Shown one piece after another: positions 5,578 to 10,879 of a stretch of DNA of 10,879 nt. Origin of the DNA: Desulfarculaceae bacterium JdFR-95 (lineage in GTDB: Bacteria > Desulfobacterota > Desulfarculia > Desulfarculales > Desulfarculaceae); NCBI GenBank assembly GCA_002011835.1, contig MTPE01000098.1, positions 1 to 10,879 of the forward strand, in the 5' to 3' direction. Positions within the stretch are counted from its first letter, which is position 1. Each line of letters starts with the position of its first letter. The notes beneath the pieces are model-generated. The model was not told where the DNA came from. It searched no databases and saw nothing but the letters and a program-made list of their open reading frames with translations. The translations under genes and the position numbers were made by a program.

Positions 5578-6042
5578 ATGAGCCGACCCCCCCAGCCCAA
5601 TCGCATCCGCATACTGTTCCTGTGTACCGGTAACTCCTGCCGCAGCCAGATGGCCGAGGGCCTGGCCCGCGCTCTCAAGGGCGAGCTGGTGGAGGCACAC
5701 TCCGCCGGCGTGGCCCCCCAGGGCCTGGACCCCCGGGCGGTCAAGGTCATGGCCGAGCTGGGCATAGACATCTCCGGCCAGCGCTCCCAGGGCCTGGAAG
5801 AGTTCCTGGGCCAGAGCTTCGACTACGTGGTCACCCTGTGCGACGACGCCCGCCAGAGCTGCCCGGTCTTCCCCGGACCGGCCCGGCGCCTGCACCTGCC
5901 CCTGGAGGACCCGCCCCTGGCGGCGGTGGGCGCGGCCAGCGAGGAGGAGGCCCTGGCCCCCTACCGCCGGGTGCGCGACCGCCTGCGGGCCTGGGTGGAG
6001 GGCCTGCCCGGGGTGCTGGAGGCGGCCCGGCCTCAGGTGTGA
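5578..6042 (+). CDS. arsC: Thioredoxin-coupled arsenate reductase (low-molecular-weight phosphatase fold)
   Basis: Reduces arsenate to arsenite in the cytoplasm using a thioredoxin-regenerated disulfide cascade. The 154-residue protein has the P-loop LCTGNSCRSQMAEG (15-28), with nucleophile Cys16 and Arg22 of the CX5R motif. It also has VVTLCDDARQSCP (84-96), carrying Cys88 and Cys95, the two further cysteines of the Bacillus-type ArsC relay at the same seven-residue spacing. A DP pair (111-112) sits where the general acid is expected. The ATG at 5578 has GGAG eight bases upstream; the following residues RIRILFLC lead directly into the P-loop. There is no arsR, arsenite pump or other ars gene in view, so it stands alone. 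It runs convergently with argJ and overlaps its end by 10 bp. A general LMW phosphatase is the alternative, but the three-cysteine pattern argues for arsenate reduction. Confidence 0.9.
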   Translation: MSRPPQPNRIRILFLCTGNSCRSQMAEGLARALKGELVEAHSAGVAPQGLDPRAVKVMAELGIDISGQRSQGLEEFLGQSFDYVVTLCDDARQSCPVFPGPARRLHLPLEDPPLAAVGAASEEEALAPYRRVRDRLRAWVEGLPGVLEAARPQV

Positions 6043-7441: not shown

Positions 7442-8017
7442 GTGAAACAGAGACTGGGGGCCCAGAACGCACTCTATCCCCTGCCCGCGGTGTTGGTGGG
7501 GGCCCTGGTGGAAGGGCGGCCCAACTTCATCACCGTCTCCCACCTGGGGGTGCTCACCACCGGCCAGGAGGAGTTCATTGGGGTGGGGCTGAACAAGGTA
7601 CATTTCACCAACGCCGGTATCCGCCAGACCGGCACCTTCTCGGTGTGCATCCCCGACGAGAAGATGGTGGAGCTGGTGGACTACTGCGGGCTGGTCTCGG
7701 GCAAGAACGTGGACAAGTCCGAGATGTTCGAGGTGTTCTACGGCGAGCTGGGCACCGCGCCCATGGTGGCGCAGTGCCCGGTGTGCATGGAGTGCCGCCT
7801 GCACCAAGTGATCGACTTTCCCGACCACGACCTGTTCATCGGCGAGATCGTGGAGACCCACGCCGAGCCCGAGGTGCTGCAGGAGGGGCGTCTGGACCTG
7901 GGGCGCATCCGGCCGCTTCTGTTCGACCTGCACGGCCGGCAGTATTGGGCTCTGGGCCGGCCGTTGGCCGCGGCCTGGAAGGCGGGCCTGAAGCTGATGG
8001 AGAAAGAACAGGGCTGA
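7442..8017 (+). CDS. Flavin reductase-like FMN-binding protein (flavoredoxin-like)
   Basis: Member of the flavin-reductase-like FMN-binding family, which includes flavoredoxins that pass electrons in anaerobes. The exact partner is not predictable. The 191-residue product shows the family layout: YPLPAVLVGA near the N-terminus, NFITVSHLGVLTT (28-40), GVGLNKVHFTNAGIRQTGTF (47-66), FSVCIPDEKMVELVDYCG (66-83), SGKNVDKSEMFEVFYG (86-101), and a C-terminal RPLLFDLHGRQYWALG (157-172). It carries CPVCMEC (112-118), three cysteines at three-residue spacing in a place where relatives usually have fewer. The GTG start at 7442 has AAGGAG eight bases upstream. It is cytoplasmic, with no signal peptide or membrane segment. 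The gene is divergent from argJ and convergent with secA. I leave the symbol blank because several flavoprotein subfamilies are possible. Confidence 0.85.
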   Translation: MKQRLGAQNALYPLPAVLVGALVEGRPNFITVSHLGVLTTGQEEFIGVGLNKVHFTNAGIRQTGTFSVCIPDEKMVELVDYCGLVSGKNVDKSEMFEVFYGELGTAPMVAQCPVCMECRLHQVIDFPDHDLFIGEIVETHAEPEVLQEGRLDLGRIRPLLFDLHGRQYWALGRPLAAAWKAGLKLMEKEQG

Positions 8018-8106
8018 AAGGCAGGCGGACGGAGGAGGGGTCCCGCCAGGGCGGCCCGGCCAGAACACCAGGAGTTGGGAAGGGGGTCTTTGCTCCGCGG
8101 GCCTCC

Positions 8107-8114
8107 CTCTTTCA
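8107..8114. repeat. Left copy of 8-bp direct repeat (putative target-site duplication)
   Basis: CTCTTTCA here is repeated exactly at 8435-8442, immediately outside the two terminal inverted repeats. An identical 8-bp repeat abutting both ends is the footprint expected from staggered-cut transposition. Confidence 0.75.
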
Positions 8115-8149
8115 GGCTCATCCGGCAAACGCCGGGGTGGTGGTAAAAC

Positions 8150-8227
8150 CATCCCGGGCCGGCCTTGTCAAGGCTGGCCTTAAGGCCACCCTTCGGGCCA
8201 TGGCCTAGAGCTGGCCGGCCCGGGATG
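8150..8227. repeat. 15-bp perfect GC-rich inverted repeat inside the element
   Basis: CATCCCGGGCCGGCC (8150-8164) is the exact reverse complement of 8213-8227, with 48 bases between. The interior holds a further near-palindrome at 8170-8193, centred on GGCCTTAAGGCC, with one mismatched pair in 24 bp. The trinucleotide AAC directly borders both outer ends, which may be coincidence. Confidence 0.85.
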
Positions 8228-8242
8228 AACAAGATCGTGCGC

Positions 8243-8351
8243 TCGTCTTTGCCAGGAAAATGATATGGCTCTACACCTGGACTACACCCGGAACACCGAG
8301 GCCAGAATCCCTGTAGTGTGCCTTTTCATATCATTTTCCTGGCAAAGACGA
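8243..8351. repeat. 25-bp perfect inverted repeat inside the element
   Basis: The arm 8243-8267 (starting TCGTCTTTGCCAGG) is the exact reverse complement of 8327-8351, with 59 bases between. The arms are more AT-rich than their surroundings. A 25-bp perfect match is far beyond chance, so a stable stem or cruciform is expected on either strand. Confidence 0.9.
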
Positions 8352-8434
8352 CAGATATCATCCAAATCTCCTGTGCCGCCGGCTGGGGCCGCAATTCCAA
8401 GCCACCTCTCACCCCGCCATTTGCCGGATGAGCC

Positions 8435-8442
8435 CTCTTTCA
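8435..8442. repeat. Right copy of 8-bp direct repeat (putative target-site duplication)
   Basis: CTCTTTCA, identical to 8107-8114, begins at the base after the right terminal inverted repeat. If the element and one copy are removed, the joined site reads CCCTCTTTCAGGG, itself a small hairpin (CCCT / AGGG), possibly part of an older gene-end structure. Confidence 0.75.
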
Positions 8443-8542
8443 GGGCACGATCTCCCCTGAGTGCTCTGGAGGGCGCGTGGGGTGGGTGGTTGTTTGCTGG
8501 GGGCTGGGGCAAGGCCGCCCGCGCCTGTCCGCCGCGGGGCGG

Positions 8543-10879
<2,337 letters not shown>

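Follow-up and report, generated by a model that had tools for sequence, protein, structure and literature searches.

The interval between a flavin-reductase-like gene and secA in Desulfarculaceae bacterium JdFR-95 raises the question of what kind of element lies there, which enzyme would move it, and how its inner parts came to be arranged as they are. An earlier note, made from the letters of the window alone (the window being the whole stretch of DNA analysed, 10,879 nucleotides), had described a MITE-like element of 320 bp at this place, free of genes, with terminal inverted repeats (TIRs), an 8-bp target-site duplication and a modular interior holding two extra inverted repeats. The window copy sits between the flavin-reductase-like gene on the plus strand and secA on the minus strand, and its parts are as follows.

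7442 to 8017, plus strand: flavin-reductase-like gene, the flavoredoxin-like gene of the earlier note (weak NCBIfam matches, below cut-off)
8107 to 8114, no strand: left target-site duplication, CTCTTTCA (direct reading, repeat search, recount; 8-bp peak across the family)
8115 to 8139, plus strand: left TIR, GGCTCATCCGGCAAACGCCGGGGTG (repeat search; end-motif scan of the own genome)
8150 to 8174, plus strand: left arm of module A (repeat search and arm comparison)
8175 to 8202, plus strand: loop of module A, in the majority (+) orientation (23 + and 15 - in 38 copies)
8203 to 8227, plus strand: right arm of module A (repeat search and arm comparison)
8243 to 8267, plus strand: left arm of module B (repeat search and arm comparison)
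8268 to 8326, plus strand: loop of module B, in the minority orientation (inverted against C130 and C126_5253, the copies nearest in linker sequence)
8327 to 8351, plus strand: right arm of module B (repeat search and arm comparison)
8352 to 8409, plus strand: right linker, which served to orient copies (copy comparison)
8410 to 8434, minus strand: right TIR, GGCTCATCCGGCAAATGGCGGGGTG on the minus strand (repeat search and end pairing)
8435 to 8442, no strand: right target-site duplication, CTCTTTCA (direct reading, repeat search, recount)
8543 to 10861, minus strand: secA, part of the gene (ORF list, SecA comparison, profile search)

Direct reading and a repeat search both placed the 320-bp element at 8115-8434. 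The TIRs pair at 23 of 25 positions, the first 15 being identical, and the 8-bp direct repeat at 8107-8114 and 8435-8442 is perfect, so that the outline given earlier was upheld, also on recount. The two inner inverted repeats were found as well: the arms of module A agree at 84% (21/25) around a loop of 28, and those of module B at 25/25 around a loop of 59. None of 20 base shuffles of the window gave a 15-bp perfect TIR together with a perfect 8-bp direct repeat (200-500 bp). Folded as single-stranded DNA, the element reaches -98.1 kcal/mol, where 100 dinucleotide shuffles gave -51.8 +/- 4.4 (z -10.6), and its G+C content is 59% as compared with 70% for the window. No gene was recognised within the element, in keeping with the earlier claim, and the ORFs of at least 80 aa that touch it extend beyond its ends. 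A search of 7900-8700 against Rfam 15 gave only two matches, both scoring about 20 bits where the family concerned has a gathering score of 130. By eye, the B loop (8268-8326) of the window copy and some others can be read as an HLDY..NTEA-like open frame.

Further copies were searched for in the host genome, a fragmented draft of 2.8 Mb in 499 contigs that is 71% complete. The DNA search returned 110 matching pieces, and the end motif with at most one mismatch gave 107 matches as compared with 0 for a reversed control. Pairing of ends (at most three mismatches, in stretches around the matches) yielded 53 pairs; one of these, of 2,084 bp on C45, was spurious and was left out of the counts. There are thus 52 end-to-end copies of 68-328 bp in the assembly, corresponding to 51 loci, since C15 and C42_10812 are one locus on overlapping contigs; both were kept in all copy counts. 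From the 31 unpaired ends, the 20 with at most two mismatches were kept as further, one-ended copies, some of which may belong together as parts of a single copy split between two contigs, and the 11 with three mismatches were left out. The rough size classes are about 320 bp for copies with A and B, about 235-240 bp for B only and 207-224 bp for A only, the others being smaller. Four matches to a model of A plus B (C406, C356, C270 and C401) had no clean end pair with a duplication and stand outside the counts. As a side observation, C15 (L151 37-292) and C42 (L176 10812-11079) are the same insertion in two versions, with several substitutions between them and, at the inner edge of one B arm, a tandem duplication of 12 bp; strain variation and a slippage event may lie behind this.

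If the family is mobile, its copies should carry target duplications. Both flanks were readable in 50 of the 52 copies, and among these the identity of the flanks was 0.745 at a length of 8 bp and at most 0.423 at all other lengths from 3 to 14. The 8-bp flanks were perfect in 9 copies, matched at 7/8 positions in 14, at 5-6/8 in 18 and at 0-4/8 in 9, and shuffled flank pairs reached 7/8 or more in 1.6%. A profile built from the 32 copies that match at 6/8 or more showed the targets to be A+T-rich 8-mers amid G+C-rich surroundings. Thirty-three copies lie between two called genes, 15 have one side without a called gene (contig edges), and 4 appear within an ORF read across the masked element; these calls were made with a home-made gene finder. 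With TIRs, many dispersed copies, a length below 500 bp, 8-bp duplications, conserved ends and neither a transposase gene nor anything else coding recognised, the element is almost certainly a MITE, that is, a non-autonomous member of a multicopy mobile family. The likeness to MITEs seen earlier in one copy was therefore confirmed by the family.

The host is placed by its SecA, which shares 76% identity with its counterpart in L041, a Desulfarculaceae MAG. Both there and in the same-genus genome G001 (L291) secA adjoins argJ and the element is absent. The flavin-reductase-like gene is absent from both as well, so that secA offers no clean before/after comparison, and the exact empty site with a single CTCTTTCA for which the earlier note had proposed to look was not found in these two. 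We also observed that two plus-strand genes of the window, 5578-6042 (which we take, by its sequence, to be arsenate-reductase or low-molecular-weight-phosphatase-like) and 7442-8017, break the minus-strand run secA-argJ-rpsB; in L041 secA, argJ and rpsB are adjacent without these two genes.

The next question was which transposase would move the element. The guess that it is ISL3-like gained support, as relatives contain complete ISL3 elements whose ends are the same as its own or similar to them. A PF01610 (ISL3) search of the own 71%-complete assembly gave no match. Some PF01610 match was obtained in 20 of 60 genomes, the own genome being among those searched. The best lay in a genome of the same family (G007, contig C44, L226), in an ISL3 insertion sequence of 1,331 bp. 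It carries GGTTCATCCGGCAAATG at each end, and its ends are 14/15 like those of the MITE. Its transposase has a frame without stops, matches PF01610 with an E value of 3e-74 and scores above the cut-off of NF033550; the flanks agree at 2/8, without a matching 8-bp duplication. When this protein was compared with 395 genomes, matches with E at most 1e-40 were found in 24, none of them the host. Thirty ISL3 loci were returned by this search, of which 11 were looked at, with a script that required GG...CC ends alike at 14/20 or more and ranked end pairs by both ends and flank match. Nine of the 11 have GGTTCWTC-type ends, and L347 and L350 do not. Among the 8 loci with ends and both flanks, 2 had perfect 8-bp duplications (AGAAAGTA at L344 and TATATTTT at L349), 1 had 7/8, and 5, that of G007 included, had 2-3/8. 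A second complete element, of 1,381 bp with GGTTCATCCGGGGAATGCCG at both ends, was found in G352; it starts at the first base of its stretch, and by eye its 24-bp ends match the left end of the MITE at 20/24. The search proposed earlier for a full-length insertion sequence sharing the ends thus succeeded in relatives (G007 and G352) and found none in the own assembly. The complete ISL3 elements with matching ends suggest that the mobiliser is very probably of the ISL3 type.

The ends and the duplication length could also point to another transposase family that duplicates 8 bp of its target. Elements of the IS6 family, to which IS26 belongs, have ends running GG...GCAAA and make 8-bp duplications, and in both respects an IS6/IS26-like mover would fit. 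However, PF13610 (IS6-type) was above its cut-off in none of 21 genomes, the own included, the single match in G007 falling below it, and the complete element found with matching ends is an ISL3 element. An IS6-like mover is therefore extremely improbable.

The interior proved to be modular, as had been claimed, and more so: modules are present or absent, and occur in either orientation. Flips are known from differences between copies. All 72 entries were oriented by the right linker. In the 46 copies with both B arms the B loop was + in 13 and - in 33, and in the 38 copies with both A arms the A loop was + in 23 and - in 15, a simple sequence signature agreeing with the A calls in 37 of the 38. 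Where a copy has both modules (31 copies), every one of the four combinations of orientation is represented (14, 8, 6 and 3 copies). For pairs of copies with a linker identity of at least 0.85, a loop was called inverted if its inverted identity exceeded the direct one by more than 0.15; in 43 such close pairs, which are not independent of one another, A was inverted in 9 and B in 10. The cleanest flip of A is seen between C126_6721 and C172_61, with linkers identical at 0.98, A at 1.00 inverted versus 0.67 direct, and B at 1.00 direct; C126_6721 ends its contig and C172_61 begins 60 bp into its own. Module exchange between copies was considered for this pair, which has identical B loops and stands apart in one of the trees, and was discarded: these are near-identical copies with an inverted A.

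Since the assembly is a draft of many contigs with many copies at contig ends, and the cleanest A flip involves two such copies, the flips could be artefacts of a draft that cannot resolve palindromic repeats. Yet flipped loops are also found within contigs and carry private substitutions there. The B loop of C304 matches that of C336 at 0.92 inverted versus 0.56 direct, that of C35 matches C83 at 0.90 versus 0.51, and that of the window copy (C17) matches C130 at 0.83 versus 0.60, all six copies being internal. The words used in assembly are usually longer than 25 bp, and the 25-bp arms are shorter than these. Assembly error is accordingly quite improbable as the source of the flips.

On a tree of the ends and linkers only, A changed orientation 8 times and B 7 times, with at least 4 changes of A and at least 5 of B forced by well-supported branches; shuffled labels gave 9.2 and 7.9 changes, respectively. 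As the shuffled and observed values are about the same, orientation is hardly inherited on that tree. On another tree A required 9 changes versus 12 in shuffles (18-19 of 500 shuffles as low), and on the loop tree B required 9 versus 11.5 (23-36 of 500 as low), only 2 of them forced; all of these trees have many weak branches. On the latter two trees orientation is partly inherited, so that flips are fewer than random. Apparently, both inner cassettes were turned round repeatedly and independently.

A second property of the modules is that the two arms of a palindrome change together. Of the 47 pairs in the A1 alignment (22 copies), 14 were changed on both sides as compared with 4.7 in shuffles, none of 500 shuffles being as high, in a test that is inflated by the relatedness of the copies. 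In the B arms of 46 usable copies, 43 of 166 departing cells were double changes, with mismatches of G.T in 36 and A.C in 35; in the A arms of 39 usable copies, 25 of 103 departing cells were double changes, with G.T in 8 and A.C in 16. At column 11 of B, 21 of the 46 copies have G-C and 20 have C-G, a double transversion. In contrast, over the first 15 positions of the outer TIRs of 52 copies only 3 of 90 departing cells were double changes (G.T 31, A.C 27). In the window copy 270 bp separate the TIR arms, which are an imperfect control, as their positions may be held by selection through the transposase. The inner arms thus change together within a copy, and the distant outer repeats hardly do.

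Paired changes of this kind would be compensatory if the element were a structured RNA under selection, such as a regulatory RNA or a bidirectional terminator. The very strong fold and the paired changes would suit such an RNA, as would the A-then-B order kept in diverged copies of other genomes (G001, G005 and G018); the A mismatches would also be a G.T excess if the opposite strand were transcribed (24 cells). But under selection on an RNA, G.T should outnumber A.C on whichever strand is transcribed, and the counts speak against this: there is no G.T excess in B and little in the TIRs, so that the counts in A, B and the TIRs do not follow wobble-tolerant pairing. The loop sequences, moreover, are found in both orientations, and the window copy has no Rfam match at the gathering score. 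Nor was there a clear orientation bias in the neighbouring genes by the home-made gene finder, with 20 tandem, 7 convergent and 6 divergent for 33 copies versus 95, 31 and 38 for 164 background gaps; a terminator or promoter niche was rejected for this reason. A selected RNA is, taken together, a very improbable explanation.

The element may be a MITE whose loops are nevertheless flipped by recombination. This could be an exchange across the 25-bp arms, of RecA type or by annealing, or the work of a site-specific invertase that uses the arms. Recombination at short repeats would flip loops too, and in many copies the B arms match over all 25 positions or nearly all. Small inversions of chloroplast DNA (5-50 bp at repeats of 11-24 bp) have been ascribed to homologous recombination in hairpins (PMC12928735), and Correia elements can invert according to a review (PMC10969869), as far as the available parts of both sources go. 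However, two different arm sequences flip, A and B, and the B arms vary at column 11, which speaks against one sequence-specific enzyme, and inversion alone leaves the co-change of the arms unexplained. We regard recombination as a possible but rather unlikely cause of the flips.

Template switching at hairpins, as described for yeast (PMC8604942) and rRNA (PMC8794818) in the portions of these reports at hand, makes arms identical and inverts spacers reversibly. The co-change of arms and the inversion of loops match this published signature, and by analogy with it template switching is somewhat favoured as the cause of both. The different behaviour of inner and outer arms would also fit, since the template-switching repeats in the accessible text on yeast have shorter spacers (PMC8604942). 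Judged from the sequences, our reading as a whole is likely to be right: a new MITE family, mobilised in trans by an ISL3 transposase, the inner palindromes of which are flipped by template switching. Ends, duplication and copy number are observed here; transposase and template switching we infer. An ISL3-family DDE transposase acting in trans would recognise the GGYTCATCCGGCAAA ends and make the 8-bp A+T-rich target duplication, mostly between genes. When the region became single-stranded, most likely in replication, palindromes A and B could fold or pair across strands, and a DNA polymerase could then switch template between the arms. A switch copying one arm from the other would leave identical arms, and one passing through the loop would turn the loop round. 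Repeated switches during the spread of the family would produce the four isomers (A+/-, B+/-), and the shorter copies would have arisen where one module or both were lost. Against this whole reading stand the 9 of 50 MITE copies that match at only 0-4/8 flank positions, the negative searches for an ISL3 transposase in both the host assembly (71% complete) and G433, and the 5 of 8 testable ISL3 elements without a matching duplication.

The distribution of the family was then surveyed. A scan for the end motif in 395 genomes of the phylum gave a match in 201, with 101 matches in the host (G000) and 83 in G433, and no more than 6 in any other of the genomes listed. The ends in G433 belong to a different family of palindromic elements with GGTTCATCCGGCAAAC ends (for example L274 1501-1904 and L277 427-800, among loci L246-L279); two pairs have perfect 8-bp duplications, AAAAAACC and TTTTTCAT, and many of the pairs tried do not. 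A PF01610 search of this 97%-complete assembly gave no match. A pair of ends 1,558 bp apart on C221 of G433 had been taken as a candidate autonomous element and was rejected, being really a 420-bp element followed by another end, with no PF01610 match. In a DNA search of 60 genomes 4 matched, namely the host and, weakly, G001, G005 and G034. A covariance model of A plus B, run on 60 genomes with strict filters and 40 candidates scored per genome, found only the host, G001 (1 locus), G005 (1 full and 1 A-only) and G018 (1 locus). The diverged single copies in G005, G001 and G018 (L306, L307 and L308) keep the A-then-B order, and that of G005 has a recognisable right end, GCATTTGCCGGATGGATC, close to the TIR. 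No common neighbour ORFs were found among these three at an E value of 1e-8 (stretches of 13, 13 and 7.5 kb for G001, G005 and G018, the last being the shortest), and a common chromosomal site was therefore rejected. A gene adjoining the host copy C65 is matched at 74% by one ORF that lies 5.4 kb away from the copy in G001, and four other ORF matches to own-genome loci are of 27-47%. No DNA match to the element was obtained in plasmids and phages. Within the reach of these searches, the family has expanded in the host species only, and the element is older than the species.

Related systems are known. An ISL3-type MITE of Microcystis aeruginosa is 187 nt long, has GGCTCTTCG ends and about thirty copies (PMC11448079). 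According to the part of that report available, it resembles the present element in having no transposase, ISL3-matching ends, 8-nt direct repeats and a stem-loop fold; it differs in sequence and length, and in that part neither paired internal palindromes nor inversion of a part is described. Its ISL3 partner is in the same genome, unlike in the host assembly here (PMC11448079). The Correia elements of Neisseria are likewise small, multicopy and reported to invert; there, in the available text, it is the element itself that inverts, whereas here two inner cassettes are found in either orientation between fixed ends (PMC10969869). The inverted spacers described for yeast, in the excerpt consulted, involve 2 to 5 substituted bases (PMC8604942); the loops here measure about 28 and 60 bp, with two in each element and dozens of copies. 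The chloroplast hairpins, with loops of 5-50 bp and inverted repeats of 11-24 bp in two orientations, are alike; in the text at hand they are organelle loci compared across species, as opposed to many copies of a bacterial mobile element (PMC12928735). In the open-licence literature no paper was recognised that deals with this family or describes cassettes inverting independently of each other in a bacterial MITE, in keeping with the earlier suggestion that the element may be undescribed. ISL3-type MITEs are already known; the family and its double cassette flipping are new.

The end motif, tied here to ISL3 elements, is useful for finding other orphan MITEs, and the paired changes are a warning that such changes in repeat hairpins need not imply a functional RNA. 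The published cases of template switching at hairpins, as far as seen in part, concern single sites and mostly short loops, and here there are dozens of copies with long loops in one genome. Orientation and arm identity can be scored against conserved flanks, with the far outer repeats as an internal contrast, and it could become possible to measure, in a natural bacterium, how fast loops invert relative to the correction of arms and to point mutation. More tentatively, and on the whole unlikely, the family might be a four-state, self-inverting MITE in which flips are so frequent that orientation is only weakly tied to the relatedness of copies. On this reading, flipping may go with the life cycle of the element, for example with each round of transposition or passage through a single-stranded state. 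If this were true, the family in one genome could serve as a clock for natural template switching.
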